Positions 48,381 to 57,696 of a stretch of DNA of 64,000 bases are shown one piece after another. A model generated the notes under the pieces. It saw only the letters and a program-made list of their open reading frames with translations. It did no database searches and was not told where the DNA came from. Position 1 is the stretch's first letter. Every line of letters begins with the position of its first letter. Source of the stretch: Paenibacillus polymyxa M1 (GTDB lineage Bacteria > Bacillota > Bacilli > Paenibacillales > Paenibacillaceae); assembly GCF_000237325.1 (NCBI RefSeq), contig NC_017542.1, positions 3,754,501 through 3,818,500 on the forward strand. The letters are read 5' to 3'. Position numbers and translations under genes: made by a program.

Positions 48381-48506
48381 TTGATGGCAATAAAAGATCA
48401 AAAAATAAATCGAATTCATAAAAAGTAAAAAAGAGAAGATTCGTTAGCAACTTAGAATTCCCTCCTCAAATTGCGATTTTACTTCCGCCCTCTGTAAACA
48501 ACAAAA

Positions 48507-48531
48507 AAACCCTTGCTTAGCAAGGGTTTTT
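48507..48531 (-). terminator. Original terminator of the truncated tRNA
   Basis: AAAACCCTTG and CAAGGGTTTT arms, A- and T-tracts on both sides, 8 bases past the tRNA 3' end on the minus strand. Confidence 0.8.
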
Positions 48532-48538
48532 GAGGAAA

Positions 48539-48606
48539 TGGGCCCTGAGGGACTCGAACCCCCGACCAATCGGTTATGAGCCGACCGCTCTAACCAACTG
48601 AGCTAG
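48539..48606 (-). other. 3' part of a CAT-anticodon tRNA, probable prophage attachment junction
   Basis: From position 8 onward the minus strand is a normal tRNA: D-arm AGCTCAGTTGGTTAGAGC, anticodon loop CTCATAA (Met, or Ile after lysidine modification), T-arm GGGGGTTCGAGTCCCTC and 3' strand AGGGCCCA. The 5' acceptor strand should read GGGCCCT but reads TTATAAC, which cannot pair. The 3' part keeps its terminator on the left, so foreign DNA begins on the right at about 48607. No intact copy lies further right within the window. Confidence 0.8.
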
Positions 48607-48819
48607 TTATAACGTTATTATTAGTTCTAGTATGCTCGTAAAATCTTTAGAGACAGGATTTTTTTCATCTCCTATATTACTAAATTTTCATGAGTTCGTT
48701 AGCAAATACGTTAGCATATTTTAATTTTCTTTTGAATTCTAATACCATCTTTCATTGTATTGTAGCCTACTACTAACTTCTTATTAGAAATATCATATTT
48801 TTGTACATTAATAGCTCAC

Positions 48820-48869
48820 AAAAAGGATATCAAGTCTTTTCTTGAAAGAAAAGACTTGATATCCTTTTT
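48820..48869. terminator. Very strong bidirectional hairpin, terminator of the radical SAM/peptide unit
   Basis: 22-bp perfect stem (AAAAAGGATATCAAGTCTTT... paired with its complement) and a 6-base loop TTGAAA, starting 5 bases after the peptide gene stop. The stretch from here to the tRNA junction holds no convincing gene. Confidence 0.88.
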
Positions 48870-48874
48870 ACGCC

Positions 48875-49075
48875 TTAAAAACAAATACTGAAAATATTGG
48901 TATCTCCTCTTGTACTGGTGCTCATAAGATTTTCAACTGTTTTAGTTTGCAGCTGTCTGATTTTGTTTGAAAGCTCTTTATTTCTAATCTGCACTGTACC
49001 ATCTTCTTCCAAGAAAATGTCATTTGGAGTAATTGAGACACCAAATACTTTTCCGTGACCTGAGTCTTCTGGCAT
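48875..49075 (-). CDS. Short peptide encoded after a radical SAM gene, candidate RiPP precursor
   Basis: 66 residues from ATG 49075, with GGGGGTGA eight bases upstream; the GTG at 49087 would overlap that site. Charged leader-like body (TPNDIFLEEDGTVQIRNKEL) with a hydrophobic, Cys- and Phe-containing end: TSTRGDTNIFSICF. It is the only other gene on the radical SAM transcript, 27 bases behind it, and ends at a very strong terminator. A short peptide with an aromatic/Cys C-terminal core beside a radical SAM enzyme is the classic layout of a modified-peptide pathway. No match to a named precursor family is claimed. Confidence 0.65.
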   Translation of the reverse strand: MPEDSGHGKVFGVSITPNDIFLEEDGTVQIRNKELSNKIRQLQTKTVENLMSTSTRGDTNIFSICF

Positions 49076-49102
49076 ATTAAATTTCACCCCCTTTCAAATA
49101 AA

Positions 49103-50074
49103 TTAAATGATGGAATGTTTGGGACAACCCAAATCTGATTTATTCAGTGTAAGTAAACCTTTTAACCAAGGTGCTAAACGTTCTTGGCTAATCTTTAAAG
49201 TCCCGTCATTCGTTATATACCCTATATTATTTTTTTCGTCATTTAAAGCAACCGTACATTTTCCGAGACTCCCATCCGACCTTATTACTAATGAGTTAGG
49301 TCTGGCAGCATAACAAATTTCTAACTCATTGGAATTTTTTCTTGGAGCAGTTTTACCATGAATTATTTCTTCTAACGGCTGTATTACTTTATTATGTTTG
49401 CTCTTCTCAATGATTTTGGGGTGCTCTTCATTTTTTCCCCCAAATTGGGCAATAGGTTTCAATAAAATTTTGAATCTTTGATCACTATAAAAATGTTTTT
49501 TCAGTAGTTCCAAAAAGTCTGGAATATAAGGTAAATTTTCATGAAACAAATGAACTCGGATAGTTACAAAAACATTCAAATTAGATTCCTTTATAGCTAG
49601 TAAATTGTTCCATACTGTATCAAAACTTCCCTCTGTATTCACTTTTTTACGGGTTTGATTATGTATCTCTTTTGGTCCGTCCAATGTTATTTGATATTTT
49701 GTAATACCAACATTGACTAGTTCGTTAAAAATAGATGGTGACAATAAATATCCGTTAGTTGTTATAGATATTAAATATGATGTTAAATTATTTTTCGTAG
49801 ATAACTTTTGAGCATGTTCACTGATATTAAGAAGAATATCTTTGGCCAATAATGGTTCTCCACCGAACCAGCTTATTGTTAGATGTTTTAACTGAGGTAC
49901 TCTTCTAGTTAGAAATTTTTTTATTGCTTGAATAGTTTCAGGAGACATACGCTTCATTTTAAAATCTTCATAGCAATATGTGCATCTAAAATTACATTGT
50001 TCTGTTGGAAGGATAATCAGTTCTTGAATTTCATTTGAAACAAGATAGGACAATATACCTGACTTATCTAACAT
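49103..50074 (-). CDS. Radical SAM peptide-maturase-like enzyme with short SPASM-like end
   Basis: 323 residues from ATG 50074, eight bases after AAGGAG. The radical SAM cluster motif is CNFRCTYC (Cys27, 31, 34). WFGGEPLL and ITTNGYLL are typical of SPASM-type peptide-modifying enzymes. The C-terminal third has only a shortened auxiliary-cluster region: EICYAARPNSLVI, LGKCTVAL and a final GCPKHSII, fewer Cys than a full SPASM domain. Substrate is probably the peptide encoded 27 bases downstream. A caspase-like protease is encoded divergently 420 bases away. The chemistry (thioether, cyclophane or other) cannot be told from sequence. Confidence 0.85.
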   Translation of the reverse strand: MLDKSGILSYLVSNEIQELIILPTEQCNFRCTYCYEDFKMKRMSPETIQAIKKFLTRRVPQLKHLTISWFGGEPLLAKDILLNISEHAQKLSTKNNLTSYLISITTNGYLLSPSIFNELVNVGITKYQITLDGPKEIHNQTRKKVNTEGSFDTVWNNLLAIKESNLNVFVTIRVHLFHENLPYIPDFLELLKKHFYSDQRFKILLKPIAQFGGKNEEHPKIIEKSKHNKVIQPLEEIIHGKTAPRKNSNELEICYAARPNSLVIRSDGSLGKCTVALNDEKNNIGYITNDGTLKISQERLAPWLKGLLTLNKSDLGCPKHSII

Positions 50075-50492
50075 TTCAACCACTCCTTTTTAATCATAAG
50101 GCTGCCCAGTTATCGTTTTATTATTCAGTAGTTTTTACATTCTATTAATTTTTTTCTATGGATCAACTTAATCTTTTCAAAGTAACTTTTAAAGAGAACT
50201 AATAACAGATTATAACAAGTCGACGATATAATCTGACCACGAATGAAGTTTATCTAACTAATTCTAATTTAACTTTTTTGATCTCAGATATGCACTTTTC
50301 AATAAATTAAAAAAAGATTAATCAATAAAATGATATAAGGAAGCGTTTGACTTAGATAACCTCCAAAAAATTCTCATGTTCTAATCAGCTAAAGTTAAAT
50401 CATTGAAGAAGAATTTACTGATATCAGAATAATTAGATCGAATTTAGGAAAAATTGAATTTGAGAAACTAATACATTAAGGAGGTAATAAAA
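50075..50492. other. Divergent promoter region between radical SAM gene and caspase-like gene
   Basis: About 418 very AT-rich bases. It must hold promoters for both directions, but none is clear enough to mark. No further gene recognised. Confidence 0.45.
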
Positions 50493-51710
50493 ATGGCAAA
50501 AGGATATTCGTTACACATTGGATTAAATTTTATTGACCCTCAACATTACGCAGGATGGGACGGAAGATTGATTGCCTGTGAAGCTGATGCGAAGGATATG
50601 GAGTTGATTTCACGTTCATTAAATTACAATAATACCTCTACATTGTTAACTGCAAATGCAACAATAAATAATGTAGCTACAGAAATAAAAAAGGCGGCTA
50701 CAGATTTAGAAAATGGAGATATCTTCTTTCTCACTTTTTCTGGACACGGAGGTACTTCAACTGACTTAAATCACGATGAGTTAGATACTCATGATGAAAC
50801 ATGGTGTTTATACGATGGACAAGTCTTAGACGATGAATTGTTCGAATTATGGTCATTATTCAAAGAAGGTGTAAGAATAATTATTTTGTCAGACTCCTGT
50901 TATAGTGGAACAGTATCTAGAGCTCGTCACTATGGTTTAGACACCGATACAAATATTGATACCGTAAATAACATTAGATACAAATTTATGCCGCTTGAAA
51001 TCGCCAAAAGAACATATAAAAACAATATTAATTTTTATACAAACAAAGTAAAACACGTTATTAAAAACAAAAATTCCATTGAATTAAAATGTTCGGTTAA
51101 ACTTATATCAGGTTGTCAGGACAATCAAACCTCCGCAGACGGAGACATCAATGGATATTTCACCGCAAAATTATTAGAAGTATGGAATGAGGGGAAATTT
51201 CGAGGTAACTATAAAGATTTCTATGAAAAATTAAAGTCTATAATGCCCCCAACTCAAACCCCAAACTATTATAATATTGGAATAACAAATACAGAATTTG
51301 ATAATCAAAAACCCTTCACAATTCAAGATATTATAATACCTGTAAGAACGCTATATGTGGAAGATCCCATCTTTCCATCATCAAGATCAAATGTGACAGA
51401 TGTAATTATTGAACAGATAAAGAGAGAGATAGAAAAAACTTTAGAGCCTCTTGCACAAGGAAATGAAGGATACGTACGATGTGAAAATCTAGAACTGAAT
51501 GGAACAAATTTAAAAGCACGTGTTCTTATCCGACACAAACACAAATCTAACGGAATAACAATTTATGCAGCTAAAACTTGGGTGGATATTGACACTGATG
51601 TTATGAATCCAGACCCAGAAGATTTAAAAGTTTGCATAAACTCACCAATCGGAAATATATGCATAACTTTGGCTGATTTAATTAAATTGATTGCAACTTT
51701 ATTGTTATAG
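50493..51710 (+). CDS. Caspase-like cysteine protease (peptidase C14 / metacaspase type)
   Basis: 405 residues behind AAGGAGG. The p20 fold is clear: start YSLHIGLNFID, catalytic His85 in TFSGHGGTS and catalytic Cys136 in LSDSCYSGT. The middle (residues 195-260) continues the caspase fold with LISGCQDNQTSADG. The C-terminal 130 residues are a separate part ending in a hydrophobic tail (LADLIKLIATLLL). Bacterial caspase-like proteases act in antiphage immunity, cell death or peptide maturation. Here it faces a radical SAM/peptide unit in prophage cargo, so peptide processing or phage defence are both possible. Confidence 0.88.
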   Translation: MAKGYSLHIGLNFIDPQHYAGWDGRLIACEADAKDMELISRSLNYNNTSTLLTANATINNVATEIKKAATDLENGDIFFLTFSGHGGTSTDLNHDELDTHDETWCLYDGQVLDDELFELWSLFKEGVRIIILSDSCYSGTVSRARHYGLDTDTNIDTVNNIRYKFMPLEIAKRTYKNNINFYTNKVKHVIKNKNSIELKCSVKLISGCQDNQTSADGDINGYFTAKLLEVWNEGKFRGNYKDFYEKLKSIMPPTQTPNYYNIGITNTEFDNQKPFTIQDIIIPVRTLYVEDPIFPSSRSNVTDVIIEQIKREIEKTLEPLAQGNEGYVRCENLELNGTNLKARVLIRHKHKSNGITIYAAKTWVDIDTDVMNPDPEDLKVCINSPIGNICITLADLIKLIATLLL

Positions 51711-52139: not shown

Positions 52140-52262
52140 TTAAGCCCCTCCTTGTTGATCGAAAAGTACGATATTCTGATGGTGGCTATGAGTCTGAACA
52201 GGTATAGTCACGATAAACAAAAAACTAGCTGCGACAATCAATAGCGCCATTTTTCTTAACAT
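52140..52262 (-). CDS. Secreted signalling prepropeptide (Phr/AloP-like)
   Basis: 40 residues from ATG 52262, overlapping the last 38 bases of the receptor gene in another frame. AAAGGGTG lies 10 bases upstream. The N-terminus is a signal sequence: MLRKMALLIVAASFLFIVTI. The exported end reads PVQTHSHHQNIVLFDQQGGA, from which a short C-terminal peptide would be cut. This size, layout and overlap are those of RRNPP-type signal genes. The mature peptide is not known; the last five to eight residues are the usual place. Confidence 0.82.
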   Translation of the reverse strand: MLRKMALLIVAASFLFIVTIPVQTHSHHQNIVLFDQQGGA

Positions 52263-53640
52263 CAGCTATCCACACCCTTTCAATAAATTCTAAATATGCT
52301 GCCTTGGTTTCGGATACTGCATAAGCTCGATAACGCTCAAACAATACCATACATTTTATAAAATAAGTCTCATTATTTAGTGTATGATAACTTACCATTG
52401 AATACATCAAGTATTTGAAGCCATCGTCGTATGTACCTCGATATAAATGATAATAAGCTAATTCATAACTCAAACGTGCATACTGTTCTGGTATAACTTG
52501 TTTCGTATATATGTCATTAGATTGCGGAAATAGCAAAAGTGAATTAACATCCGTTTCAAAACGCTGAAGTATATCACTTACGTCTATCTGGTATCGGTTT
52601 GCCGTCATCATAATGTTCAACAGTTGGGCAACTTTATCTTGTTCAGATGTATCTGATGGTGCACCAATGTATTTAACATAATCATATAAGGCGTTTATAT
52701 CTCCAGATAAAAGCTTATTTGCGACAGCGTTAGCTTGCGCCCAACCTTTGAATAAATTAATCCAATATAATGTATCCTCGTCCATCTCTCTAACCCACTC
52801 TAAATCCGCATAGGCGTATGTATATTGTAGAGCTTGCTGATAATCGCCTTTGGCTTCACAGACACCTGCACACAGCAGGTCAGCATAAGAAATGTACACA
52901 AACAGAGGACGCGTTAGCTTGTTAGTAGATTCACATTCCCGACTCTTGTGTTCGTGTTTCAAATTATATTGAATTTCCGCTTTAGCTCTCATTAATTTAG
53001 CTATTTCGTCAACCTTATCCCATTTACGCAAAGACCTGTACACGTTAGCTAAATCCTTCAACGCGTCAAGCTGGTCTATTTCATCTAGGCGTTCCACGAA
53101 GGGTTCAAATAGTGTGGCAGCCTTAAGATTCTGGCTTTGATCGTCTCCAATCTGAATCGTGAATATGCGATATTGACAGACTGCCAAACGTTCAGAATGT
53201 TGATATTTTTCCGCTTCGGCTACCCCCTCATAGAGCACCAACGCAGCCTCATGACGTCCCTGCGCCAACAACCCTTCTGCAATTTCAAATAGCTTGGGTG
53301 AATACAGTAGATTATCCATGATGGCTCCCACTACTCGACGGATCGCATCCAACTTGTCCAACTCCGCACAGCGAAATATAAATGGCTCGATTCGTCTCAT
53401 ATTCGGGGGATGGTCGATGATGTAGTTTTCTACAAACAAGTCGTAAAAATAGCCTTCTGGCAAACCCATAGCCTCAGTAATTCGATCCAGTTGGTTAACA
53501 GACAAAGGCTTATTTCCTGTCACGATAGCACTTACTGCTCCCCTATTCATATCCGCAATATGACCAAATTGTGAAAAGCTCAAACCCTCTTGTTGTAGGA
53601 ATCTGTCTAATTCTGCTCGAATCGTAGGTGTATGTTCCAT
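52225..53640 (-). CDS. HTH-TPR peptide-sensing transcriptional regulator (RRNPP family)
   Basis: 471 residues from ATG 53640 (MEHTPTIRAEL), after GAGGGGTGG; the frame upstream to 53685 has no ribosome site. Residues about 6-60 form an XRE-type helix-turn-helix (FSQFGHIADMNRGAVSAIVTG). The rest is helical with TPR-like repeats (ALVLYEGVAEAEKYQ, ALQYTYAYADLEWV, LSYELAYYHLYRGTY). This is the architecture of PlcR, NprR, AimR and the AloR receptors known from P. polymyxa. A secreted peptide gene overlaps its end. In a prophage such a pair may sense related phages or cell density and control lysogeny or cargo genes. Confidence 0.87.
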   Translation of the reverse strand: MEHTPTIRAELDRFLQQEGLSFSQFGHIADMNRGAVSAIVTGNKPLSVNQLDRITEAMGLPEGYFYDLFVENYIIDHPPNMRRIEPFIFRCAELDKLDAIRRVVGAIMDNLLYSPKLFEIAEGLLAQGRHEAALVLYEGVAEAEKYQHSERLAVCQYRIFTIQIGDDQSQNLKAATLFEPFVERLDEIDQLDALKDLANVYRSLRKWDKVDEIAKLMRAKAEIQYNLKHEHKSRECESTNKLTRPLFVYISYADLLCAGVCEAKGDYQQALQYTYAYADLEWVREMDEDTLYWINLFKGWAQANAVANKLLSGDINALYDYVKYIGAPSDTSEQDKVAQLLNIMMTANRYQIDVSDILQRFETDVNSLLLFPQSNDIYTKQVIPEQYARLSYELAYYHLYRGTYDDGFKYLMYSMVSYHTLNNETYFIKCMVLFERYRAYAVSETKAAYLEFIERVWIADVKKNGAIDCRS

Positions 53641-53818
53641 GCCATAGCCACCCCTCGCATAAAAATTCCAGTATTTTATATTCATTTACTATTTTTGCCC
53701 AGCAATTAACCGATTGTCAATATCTTTTTTTGCGAATCATGTAGAAAGGCTACGTTTGTCATAAGAGCATTCCTAAAAACAAAAAAGTACCCCACCGGCA
53801 CTAAGCCAGAAAAAGATA

Positions 53819-54506: not shown

Positions 54507-55067
54507 TTAATGAATTAAGTTTTTGTTATCTTCCTTAACTGGATACACATCCAAGAATATTCCTTTAGGAAGATCTTGTTTTTGGGAGTATAATTCTGAT
54601 GCTTGCTCTTCTGTAACATTTGTAATTATCATCTTACCTTCTGGTTTACCTTCTCTTAAGTGCAATTTCAATTGGGTGTTCTCTTCTGAAATAAAAGGAA
54701 AAGAAGAAGCCCACTGCTTACAAAGAACTGAAGCGTTTTTCATTCGTTTCAATTCCTGTCTAGTTATGAAGTAGTTCCTATATATCTTAATGCTAAAAAA
54801 AGCAATGAGGAGTATAGGGATACCCATAGTTAAAACAATTGTGGATACAGCCAAACCTGAGACTATGATCATTTTTATCAAACCAACAAAAAAAGAAACA
54901 ATTGCCCACGTTATCAGAACAAGTTGGAGAAGTATAGATATAACATCAGAACTTCCAAAAAGTCCACTTACTTTCCATAACCTGCTTGAATATAAGATGA
55001 AGGCTATGAAGAATATGAGAAAAAGTGAGCCAAATTGCACCATTATCATAATATTCAAAGCCCTCAC
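54507..55067 (-). CDS. Three-helix membrane protein, partner of LCAT-like hydrolase
   Basis: 186 residues. Three hydrophobic segments (about 6-26, 40-62 and 70-95), then a soluble C-terminal half with RQELKRMKNASVLCKQW and KMIITNVTEEQASELY. Family not recognised. It starts 7 bases after the LCAT-like gene and shares its transcript and terminator. A membrane partner next to a lipid-acting hydrolase could be an inhibitor, anchor or pore, but the sequence alone does not decide. Confidence 0.72.
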   Translation of the reverse strand: MRALNIMIMVQFGSLFLIFFIAFILYSSRLWKVSGLFGSSDVISILLQLVLITWAIVSFFVGLIKMIIVSGLAVSTIVLTMGIPILLIAFFSIKIYRNYFITRQELKRMKNASVLCKQWASSFPFISEENTQLKLHLREGKPEGKMIITNVTEEQASELYSQKQDLPKGIFLDVYPVKEDNKNLIH

Positions 55068-55074
55068 CCCCTAA

Positions 55075-57696
55075 TTATATTTCTTCATCTTCTTTCATGA
55101 TAAGTGGAATTTCCCTTAATGGCGGTCGAACGTTTTTCAAATCAGTTATTACGAGTTTAAAACGGTATTCAAGGAATTTTTCATCAACTATAAACTTCCC
55201 TTTGAACATACCACTATCGTCTTCAATAAGATCTAACTGTTTGTCAGGCACTTTATTAGTTCTCACTGCAACCAACTTTGCACGAGGTCGGGTATGAGTG
55301 ATAGTCTCGTGAGTTCTTTCAGAAATTAATTCGAAGGAAAAATCATATTCTTCTCCCACTTCAAGAACTTCTGTTGGAGCGCCATAAAAATATAGGGAAT
55401 ATTTTTCCAAAAATCTAATATCAAGCTCCAATGAATCAGAATTAAATTTTACACTTCTGATGTTATCAGGTATGTCTTGATTTGGAGTTACTCTTCTCGA
55501 AACCTTGCTTCCTTTGCCCAGTAAAACAATTTCGAAATCATATATGTCTAATGTTTCGTATTTGAGTATGTTTTCCCAGATCATGATTGGTTGAGTTGCA
55601 GAAGAGTACTCTTCCCACATTAATATAGGAATATTACCCAAACTGAGTTTTAATGATTCAATGTCACCTTGTTTTCCAAATTCATTTACTGAGTAGTATT
55701 CAATTTCATAAAAGGAATTTGGGTCTCTACGTAACTTAGCTGGACTCAAATTCACTTTTCCACTCGATTCAAATTTCTTAAATTCACCTTCACTGTCTAC
55801 TCTGTAATATGAATCTGCTCGGGCTCCGTTTGTTAATGGCTTAAAGGACAAATCTATTCCCTCCGGGTCTAAAGCAACTATTAACTTTGTGGAAGGGTTC
55901 CGGCCATCAACATTGAATGTGAATTTTTTTGTCTTTATTGATCTGTTAAAATTATCTTTACCAAATGCTTCAATTGTATGTGCACCTGAATCAAGATTTA
56001 AATCCACGGGTTCCAAATAACGCTTTGGTTTTCCACCATCGACAGTATAAAATAAGCTCGCTATGTTTTCAGGCTGGTCTACATCCAGAAACAATGTGAC
56101 TAAACCGGAGTAAACCTGTCTGTATTTAACTTTTTGCCTCTGATTGCTTATTTTAATTTTTACTTGCGGAAGGTCATTTTGTACCTTTGAAACCTCTTCC
56201 ACTTTCTTCCTTCTTATCACCTTCGGTTCAATAGTAGAACTATCTACTCGAAGAGAAGTTTCTGTGTTTTTATTTGATAAGGGAATTCTCATTGTAGCTG
56301 ATGTTTCATCAGATACTGGAATTGGATCGAACTTTTCCTCTTTCACCGAATCCTCATCATAGATTTTAACAGAAATATCAGCTACCCCATTGTCATAAGA
56401 ATTGATCTTTATAATCATGTCATCTTTAATTGTTTCATCAAAATAAACATACTTTGCTTGACCAATATTAATATATGTAACATTTCCCTCTATTGCATAC
56501 GGGCTAATCTCTTCAATATTAGGATCAAATACTCCTGCTACATATCTATTCTCCTCGTCAAGGATTGTTGAATCAACAGGGCACATAATTTTTGCAAATA
56601 CACCTTTTCTGAATAGATCTGTATTTTCCTCTTCATGTATACCTAGAGGCATATCTCCTTGCTTACCACTTAATGACCATCGGATAAATTTTATAACTTC
56701 TTTCTCGGAACCCATTTTTGTATGCTGTACTGGACAGTAATATAAATTCGCAGCATGTGCAGGAGTGGCACTAAAAACTGGAACAACACCATCGCCATTC
56801 TCAAACTTACAGTCCCTTTTAAAAGGATACCTTGTCTTGTTGCTCTCAATAGGCAACTCATATAAGGTTGGTATCTGACATCCGATCAAATTATCATGTT
56901 CGATATGAGGAGGAATAGATTGAAGCATCATTGTTTGAATTGGGCTCATGAAATCATTCCAAACATTAGATACCACTCCATGCGTTCCAACTAGTTCATC
57001 ATAAAAGTTTTGTGCTTTCATCTGAACATCCTGATATGTTATAACCTTGTCTGAATTATCATCTTCATTTTGTAACAGGAATTTACCTTCTTTATGATCA
57101 TTAAAGTAGTGTTCGCTTGGAAGTAACTGATAAACTGACGGCAATTGGCGAGCTAAATCCCTGGTTTTTTTATCGTCAAACATTTCAAATATGTTTGTAA
57201 AATCTTGAAAAAATCCAGGCTCACCAAATGATAGGGCCTTATATGAATCTGGAGCACCATGCCATGGTGTTCCAAGAGTAGTCAGTTTTTTTACCATACT
57301 AGAAATCCCAAGACCATCCATTTTTAAAATTGCTATCTTGGCAATCATCCCCCCCATACTATGGGCCACTAAATGGATATTATCGTGCTTCGCATTCAAC
57401 CTAGTTATCGTACTTACCAGTTCGTCTGCGGTGAGGTTGATATCTAAACGCCAGTCATAGGGAAACATTTCTGCTTCCTCACTAGAGAATTCTTTAAGAA
57501 TTCCCCGATAAATCCTTTTGAAATATATATTAAATCCATTAACGACACTTAATGGACTTTTAGCCTTCATTGGATTGCATATGTTAAGAGCCTCTACATC
57601 TTCAAGATTTTTAGGAAACCACCTCTTGTTCCCCCCTTCCCAGAGATCACTTCCTTTAATCCCCGGTATGAATATTACGTACGGTTTTCCGGTCAT
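55075..57696 (-). CDS. LCAT/PDAT-like serine hydrolase with C-terminal beta domains
   Basis: 873 residues, no signal peptide. Residues about 1-350 are an alpha/beta-hydrolase of the lecithin:cholesterol acyltransferase group: FIPGIKGSDLWEG at the start, FPYDWRLD, nucleophile Ser113 in AHSMGGMIAK, Asp in GDGVVPVFSA and His in QHTKMGS. The rest is beta-rich, with a chitobiase-type segment (LFYTVDGGKPKRYLEP, HTIEAFGKDNFNRS) suggesting Ig-like modules. A related enzyme would cleave or transfer lipid acyl groups. It is in prophage cargo, paired with a membrane protein. Defence or lysogenic-conversion roles are possible. Confidence 0.82.
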   Translation of the reverse strand: MTGKPYVIFIPGIKGSDLWEGGNKRWFPKNLEDVEALNICNPMKAKSPLSVVNGFNIYFKRIYRGILKEFSSEEAEMFPYDWRLDINLTADELVSTITRLNAKHDNIHLVAHSMGGMIAKIAILKMDGLGISSMVKKLTTLGTPWHGAPDSYKALSFGEPGFFQDFTNIFEMFDDKKTRDLARQLPSVYQLLPSEHYFNDHKEGKFLLQNEDDNSDKVITYQDVQMKAQNFYDELVGTHGVVSNVWNDFMSPIQTMMLQSIPPHIEHDNLIGCQIPTLYELPIESNKTRYPFKRDCKFENGDGVVPVFSATPAHAANLYYCPVQHTKMGSEKEVIKFIRWSLSGKQGDMPLGIHEEENTDLFRKGVFAKIMCPVDSTILDEENRYVAGVFDPNIEEISPYAIEGNVTYINIGQAKYVYFDETIKDDMIIKINSYDNGVADISVKIYDEDSVKEEKFDPIPVSDETSATMRIPLSNKNTETSLRVDSSTIEPKVIRRKKVEEVSKVQNDLPQVKIKISNQRQKVKYRQVYSGLVTLFLDVDQPENIASLFYTVDGGKPKRYLEPVDLNLDSGAHTIEAFGKDNFNRSIKTKKFTFNVDGRNPSTKLIVALDPEGIDLSFKPLTNGARADSYYRVDSEGEFKKFESSGKVNLSPAKLRRDPNSFYEIEYYSVNEFGKQGDIESLKLSLGNIPILMWEEYSSATQPIMIWENILKYETLDIYDFEIVLLGKGSKVSRRVTPNQDIPDNIRSVKFNSDSLELDIRFLEKYSLYFYGAPTEVLEVGEEYDFSFELISERTHETITHTRPRAKLVAVRTNKVPDKQLDLIEDDSGMFKGKFIVDEKFLEYRFKLVITDLKNVRPPLREIPLIMKEDEEI

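Follow-up and report, generated by a model that had tools for sequence, protein, structure and literature searches.

Thioether maturases of the CteB/SCIFF type join a radical S-adenosylmethionine (SAM) core to an auxiliary-cluster tail and act on a separate small precursor, which in the case of SCIFF carries six cysteines. Comparable enzymes are found in the PapB ranthipeptide maturases, in the twitch sactisynthase SkfB, and in the FxsA/FxsB (FxSxx-COOH) and Yhh cyclophane systems, where the radical SAM enzyme is partnered by a short peptide that has an aromatic residue close to its C-terminus. Here we describe a locus in Paenibacillus polymyxa M1, within a 64,000-nucleotide stretch of the chromosome (the window; G000:C1:3754501-3818500), in which genes for a 66-residue peptide and a radical SAM enzyme lie at the end of a prophage beside a gene for a caspase-type protease. 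We consider it probable that peptide and enzyme (48875-50074, minus strand) form a phage-borne two-gene cassette for a ribosomally synthesized and post-translationally modified peptide (RiPP), carried as cargo of a tRNA-Met prophage, and that the caspase is an independent gene in the same defence-type slot. In a literature search of titles and abstract beginnings, nothing recognisable as a combination of peptide, radical SAM enzyme and caspase was found.

The enzyme gene (49103-50074, minus strand) starts with ATG behind a good ribosome site (AAAAAGGAG) and encodes 323 amino acids, classed by Pfam, alignment and structure model as a twitch-type radical SAM peptide maturase. The radical SAM domain PF04055 is matched at E 7.9e-22, and the SPASM domain PF13186 at E 0.11, under its cut-off. 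The CX3CX2C motif of radical SAM enzymes (C27-x3-C31-x2-C34) is followed by a putative auxiliary-cluster tail with C254-x13-G268-x4-C273 and C317, and all six cysteines are invariant in a 26-row enzyme alignment. With three invariant cysteines in all, the tail fits, in C254-X13-G-X4-C273, the first part of the SPASM/twitch motif as defined in an excerpt of PMC6231123. From these conserved cysteines we infer one radical cluster and one auxiliary cluster in a twitch domain. The AlphaFold model (predicted local distance difference test, pLDDT, 86.2; predicted template modelling score, pTM, 0.87) is closest to the solved folds of CteB 5WHY and 5WGG, with template modelling (TM) scores of 0.69 and 0.67 by query length, and other near folds are anSME, BlsE, ChlB and SkfB.

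Despite this likeness, the enzyme differs from each of the described groups. Compared with CteB it has a three-cysteine twitch-like tail instead of a full SPASM domain and no N-terminal RiPP recognition element (RRE), the leader-binding domain, for which there is no room since the profile alignment to CteB begins only at residue 97 of that protein; its score for TIGR03974 is 77 bits against a cut-off of 425. SkfB shares the twitch-type tail (TM 0.56) but has an N-terminal RRE, according to an excerpt of PMC6231123. The best NCBIfam scores, 151 bits for TIGR04463 and 143 bits for Clo7bot (TIGR04334), fall below cut-offs of 525 and 600, and the enzyme is about 115 residues shorter than these models. 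PapB (NF047865) is of similar length (model 330) and is matched over the radical core, though at 109 bits against 340. YhhB reaches 79 bits against 445, and FxsB is absent from the 25 families listed for the enzyme; in every one of these 25 (of 84 matched) the enzyme is under the curated cut-off. Its 26 close homologues likewise fit every listed curated maturase family poorly, the best E for any being 1.5e-46. Viperin (pVip) was considered and rejected (NF038283, 53.7 bits against a cut-off of 180), and we read a PADLOC pVip match at E 6.1e-16 as reflecting the common superfamily.

The enzyme family itself is large, with 4,577 proteins matching at E<=1e-10, a number that may include neighbouring radical SAM families. 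The closest relatives (P0002-P0009; 54-65% identical) come from Bacillus cereus-group strains and metagenome contigs, and in a tree the window enzyme and P0002 stand beside P0003-P0009 with support of 98/92. Within the bacterial family of P. polymyxa, a match at E<=1e-60 is present in 6 of 394 genomes, and outside the window genome these frames are longer (443-480 aa) and of another type, while an order-level relative (L002 in G081, 45% identity) is of the short type. The P. polymyxa genome also encodes a second radical SAM enzyme (34%; G000:C1:4544784-4545632, L011), which with a frame of 458 aa is apparently another maturase type.

The putative precursor (48875-49075, minus strand; 66 aa, MPED...GDTNIFSICF) has its own ribosome site, AAAGGGGG, and its ATG lies 27 nt past the enzyme stop codon, a spacing that makes a common transcript likely. 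Residues 20-31 (IFLEEDGTVQIR; 48983-49018, minus strand) align with the leader motif of other precursors, and the window peptide's counterpart of the leader I.IDE.GKVVI.NP.LA..I is IFLEEDGTVQIRNKELSNKI. The putative core, whose boundary would lie after Arg56, is GDTNIFSICF (residues 57-66; 48878-48907, minus strand) and holds the sole cysteine, C65. A probable terminator at 48819-48870, with a 4-nt loop and A/T tracts on both sides, folds at -34.9 kcal/mol (z -9.7 versus shuffles), and the intergenic region between enzyme and caspase (50075-50492; 25.6% GC) likely holds promoters for both sides. The original prediction, made from the DNA letters, had named this 66-residue peptide ending in TNIFSICF and the radical SAM enzyme with its shortened SPASM-like tail, and had taken the two as a RiPP pair. 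The peptide and the enzyme are confirmed here and their pairing is supported; the terminator is confirmed too, except that its stem has 24 bp including a terminal G-U pair rather than 22.

Small open reading frames (ORFs) gathered beside enzyme genes of this family have a common leader followed by a varied, mostly cysteine-rich tail. With a leave-one-out profile of these precursors, the window peptide ranks first of the 673 small ORFs in the window at E 5e-5, with the next at 0.27. In a motif count that required, on the same strand and within 700 bp, an ORF in which the leader motif is followed by a cysteine, 40 of 67 short-type enzyme genes were positive, compared to 2/67 and 1/67 in two control intervals and 9/52 for longer or lower-scoring enzymes (three copies, L164, L002 and L095, were dropped from the set beside those of the window). 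A profile count (E<0.2, within 800 bp, same strand) gave 48 of 70 short-type genes, duplicate loci included, and 1 of 52 for the longer or lower-scoring ones; here L164, a copy of L013, was missed owing to strand alone. The original prediction was to be refuted if enzyme homologues lacked both peptide and caspase; of the two, only the caspase proved to be lacking. In L012, L013, L021 and L092, all of them Firmicute loci, the precursor gene lies behind that of the enzyme, as in the window, and in the cyanobacterial loci shown it lies ahead. Among the precursors of enzyme relatives more distant than P0002-P0009, the core is variable. Searching with an alignment of precursors returned 25 proteins, a number that counts the seeds, with Bacillus spizizenii and Bacillus sp. 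REN10 among the sources. As a separate observation, the precursors at L013:6134-6331 and P0131 have RRRR shortly before a cysteine core, a possible basic cleavage site.

The pair is not confined to this prophage. On the viral contigs L092 and L096, enzymes with 52% and 54% identity lie beside terminase and portal-type genes (L096 ends inside the enzyme gene, leaving its peptide region unseen), and the L021 enzyme locus is near endolysin, holin and partition genes; no caspase is found in these three loci. L092 is probably of Bacillus origin, judging from the related B. spizizenii peptide P0132. Based on these loci, the cassette looks like a recurrent phage passenger in differing places.

In P. 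polymyxa the prophage spans about 55.6 kb between copies of a 118-bp attachment (att) repeat, 98% identical, at 48488-48605 of the window and at G000:C1:3858476-3858593 of the same genome, so that the prophage end assumed in the original prediction is confirmed. The repeat covers most of the integration site, a tRNA-Met (CAT) gene found by ARAGORN at 48540-48613 (minus strand). An integrase gene (Phage_integrase, E 1.6e-19) is near the far end, and holin, endolysin, tail-fibre and baseplate genes are present in the window. Outward from the tRNA-Met the order is terminator stem, peptide, enzyme and caspase, and the unit is located between att and the lysis module. For comparison, a holin relative at E<=1e-30 was found in 6 of 75 genus genomes, at 11 places including the window's own, and 8 of the 10 other places were compared as sister prophages; peptide, enzyme and caspase are absent from all eight (E<=1e-3). 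One sister, L232, is integrated at the same tRNA-Met site (att 97.6%), and the gene directly next to its tRNA encodes a reverse transcriptase (L232:5480-7300; RT_UG13a, E 2e-226). In sister L233 the stretch examined includes an AbiA-like reverse transcriptase (E 3.2e-24), and in L234 a PDC-S02 candidate (E 6.5e-26) lies between two prophage markers, the prophage ends being unmapped in both. The gene content of these three sisters indicates that the slot holds variable cargo, with a defence gene in the one same-site case. By analogy, the position of the unit between att and lysis module, where a known defence gene stands in that single sister, suggests a defence role and backs it indirectly.

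Several points weigh against reading the locus as such a RiPP cassette. The profile test was not fully blind, because the seed initially used to assemble its training sequences included the window peptide. As a single query the peptide found no relative in a set of 5.8 billion proteins. It has one cysteine after the leader, as do only 3 of 40 precursor rows (the window, L002 and L058); one other row has none (L031), and the remainder have two to five. In the motif count, 27 of 67 short-type genes had no match, and some matches look spurious (L041, L053 and the second one in L056). The precursors of the closest enzyme clade, P0002-P0009, lie outside all counts, and none of the 25 proteins returned by the alignment query was recognised as their partner. 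The argument from the slot comes from a single sister that shares the att site, the ends of the other sisters being unmapped. Base composition is also uninformative on a joint origin of the unit: its three genes have 31-35% GC compared to 47-49% for lysis and tail genes, but low GC is also seen in other cargo of the prophage (lipase 35.9%, 4TM gene 33.3%, HTH-TPR gene 40.2%).

If the two-gene reading holds, the RRE-less enzyme would itself recognise the beta-strand-like leader motif of the 66-residue peptide, abstract a hydrogen in the core and form a bond through the single Cys65 of the C-terminal core, the likeliest product being a thioether between this cysteine and a residue close by in TNIFSI. 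The described classes do not fit directly. Sactipeptides and ranthipeptides have several core cysteines as thioether donors, whereas C65 is the only one here, and PapB, which joins Cys to Asp/Glu according to an excerpt of PMC9413430, likewise differs in that the window peptide has a single cysteine. An FxSxx-COOH peptide was rejected, as the sequence ends in FSICF with F at -5 and S at -4 and lacks the FxSxx motif. In CteB a substrate cysteine binds the open site of Aux I (excerpt of PMC6231123), and for such binding one core thiol would suffice. The leader would later be removed by a protease outside those identified; the cut could plausibly fall at Arg56, which immediately precedes GDTNIFSICF. 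The product may act in the lysogen or be set free when the phage lyses the cell, and the slot suggests that its role would be in competition or defence; the caspase would be a separate, independently acquired cargo gene.

The protease gene (50493-51710, plus strand), adjacent to the cassette and preceded by a good ribosome site, encodes 405 amino acids with a caspase domain (PF00656, E 1.4e-17). Its residues 1-278 match solved GSU0716 (3BIJ) at E 1.1e-78, and H85 and C136 are invariant in a 9-row alignment, so that a GSU0716-type caspase (peptidase C14) with the catalytic His and Cys kept is predicted; the two catalytic residues had been named in the original prediction, whose description of the protease as divergent is not borne out by the GSU0716 match. 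Beyond the GSU0716 homology, the protein has an extra C-terminal domain of about 100 aa (pLDDT mostly under 65). EACC1-caspase conflict systems share the caspase domain, and an EACC1-associated caspase was rejected (NF047832, a weak match of 24.5 bits against a cut-off of 140, and none of the families matched by the seven proteins scanned is an EACC1 family). Caspase relatives occur in 20 plasmid records (E<=1e-3) and 35 viral-contig loci, with none in phage records. In Bacillota, the window's own genome is the sole one with the caspase among 398 genomes of the class (E<=1e-5) and 378 of the phylum (E<=1e-10), and the figure for relatives is 2 of 99, the second being a stand-alone C-terminal domain. 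This is a 112-aa ORF (L210:4995-5333, minus strand), and a decayed remnant of the domain is found in Neobacillus niacini (L211:1501-1746, minus strand), on a different contig than the enzyme locus L012 (192,069 versus 218,432 bp). Copy and remnant suggest that the C-terminal domain is mobile in its own right.

One possible hypothesis is a three-gene defence in which the caspase is gated or inhibited by the modified peptide, or has it as a substrate, and interference by another phage leads to cell killing or arrest. In one concrete form, the caspase would cleave after Arg56 and free GDTNIFSICF; plant metacaspases are Arg/Lys-specific according to an excerpt of PMC3881575, and cassette and caspase are divergent neighbours in a slot whose counterpart in L232 is an anti-phage reverse transcriptase. 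A parallel also exists on a plasmid of Rhodococcus sp. DMU1 (L204:6001-9737), where a caspase relative adjoins a cluster of the FxsA/FxsB and Yhh kind: a YhhB/FxsB-like radical SAM enzyme (YhhB 318 and FxsB 284 bits, under cut-offs of 445 and 370), an aKG-HExxH hydroxylase, which at 65.8 bits passes its cut-off of 40, and a 65-aa ORF. This parallel sustains the caspase-RiPP idea without carrying it. However, the linkage is not conserved in the loci compared. Of 278 loci scanned, 137 have the enzyme at a profile threshold of E<=1e-40, a count that takes in duplicates and the longer types. With copies of the window set aside, 133 loci are left (1.24 Mb in all, many reaching a few kb on each side, the counts covering enzymes other than the closest clade P0002-P0009), and in these no caspase was found by tblastn at E<=1e-3 or by motif. 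An earlier scan of loci L001-L163 had found it in the window's own locus alone. Among 50 enzyme-bearing genomes (representing 50 of 80 loci), four match the caspase at E<=1e-5, one by the C-terminal domain only and three at 24-36% identity, with the domain covered in part or for the most part. In the other direction, 46 caspase loci, among which L183 and L240 overlap, include a single one with a radical SAM gene; this gene, in Rhodococcus, is of another family. Moreover, R or K before the first core cysteine is also seen in precursors with no caspase nearby. The caspase as maturation or effector partner, as the original prediction had it, is thus rejected as a family trait, and that prediction is partly supported as a whole. 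For the locus itself we regard a three-gene defence as unlikely, and a phage-encoded immune module in which a C-terminally cross-linked, single-cysteine decapeptide from the minimal twitch enzyme restrains or triggers the caspase is similarly doubtful.

The same two-gene cassette could instead make a bacteriocin or a signal for other cells, freed by phage lysis or by an unlinked host transporter, a use of the product that we hold possible but tentative. It is favoured by relatives with transport genes: for 7 of 67 short-type rows the locus includes a large frame with a C39-peptidase-like motif, 20 loci have an ABC signature (L019 has a C39-ABC transporter by Pfam), and an Acetobacter plasmid locus has HlyD, ABC and TolC genes. 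Motif scans, in loci of limited length, found no C39 or ABC-signature frame in L012, L013, L021, L092 or L096, nor in 55.4 kb of the prophage, which agrees with the missing exporter of the original prediction. We consider it very improbable that the small ORF is incidental and that the enzyme works on another substrate. The lack of a database relative for the peptide alone and a core without the usual cysteine pairs speak for this, but the leader motif, the ribosome site, the first rank in the profile test and a place directly behind the enzyme, shared with L012, L013, L021 and L092, all argue for a genuine precursor.

Other genes of the prophage and its sisters were also recorded. An HTH-TPR regulator gene (52225-53685) overlaps that of a 40-aa secreted-type peptide (52140-52262, minus strand), and the two, which we take to be an RRNPP/Phr-like pair, recur in 6 of 8 sister stretches and are a probable peptide communication module of these phages. 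A 51-aa ORF recurs in 7 of 8 sister stretches, and an SNase/Excalibur protein adjoins the RT_UG13a reverse transcriptase of L232. Further inward, at 54507-57696 (minus strand), an LCAT-type lipase (873 aa) is accompanied by a small protein that is weakly S_4TM-like. In VMAP systems an alpha/beta-hydrolase neighbours caspase domains, according to an excerpt of Kaur et al. 2020 (PMC7159879). Caspase and lipase as one unit were rejected here; sister L236 has the lipase-4TM pair (40% and 32% identity) without a caspase, so that the pair looks like a separate module.

Taken as a two-gene cassette, the P. polymyxa locus is a prophage-borne RiPP-type pair that belongs to a large radical SAM group and is unusual in its single-cysteine form, the pairing itself being found in many bacteria. 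Short-type enzymes occur in many phyla with a recognisable leader motif and highly varied cores, and the window peptide, encoded by a phage and with its one cysteine adjoining the C-terminal residue, is an extreme form. It offers a small system for asking what an RRE-less twitch maturase does with a single thiol, and the slot, which in a sister holds an anti-phage gene, makes a role for RiPPs in phage-phage conflict directly testable. If the caspase were indeed gated by the modified peptide, GSU0716-type caspases and radical-SAM-modified peptides would have come together on at least two occasions, with a twitch enzyme in this prophage and with a YhhB/FxsB-like one in Rhodococcus.

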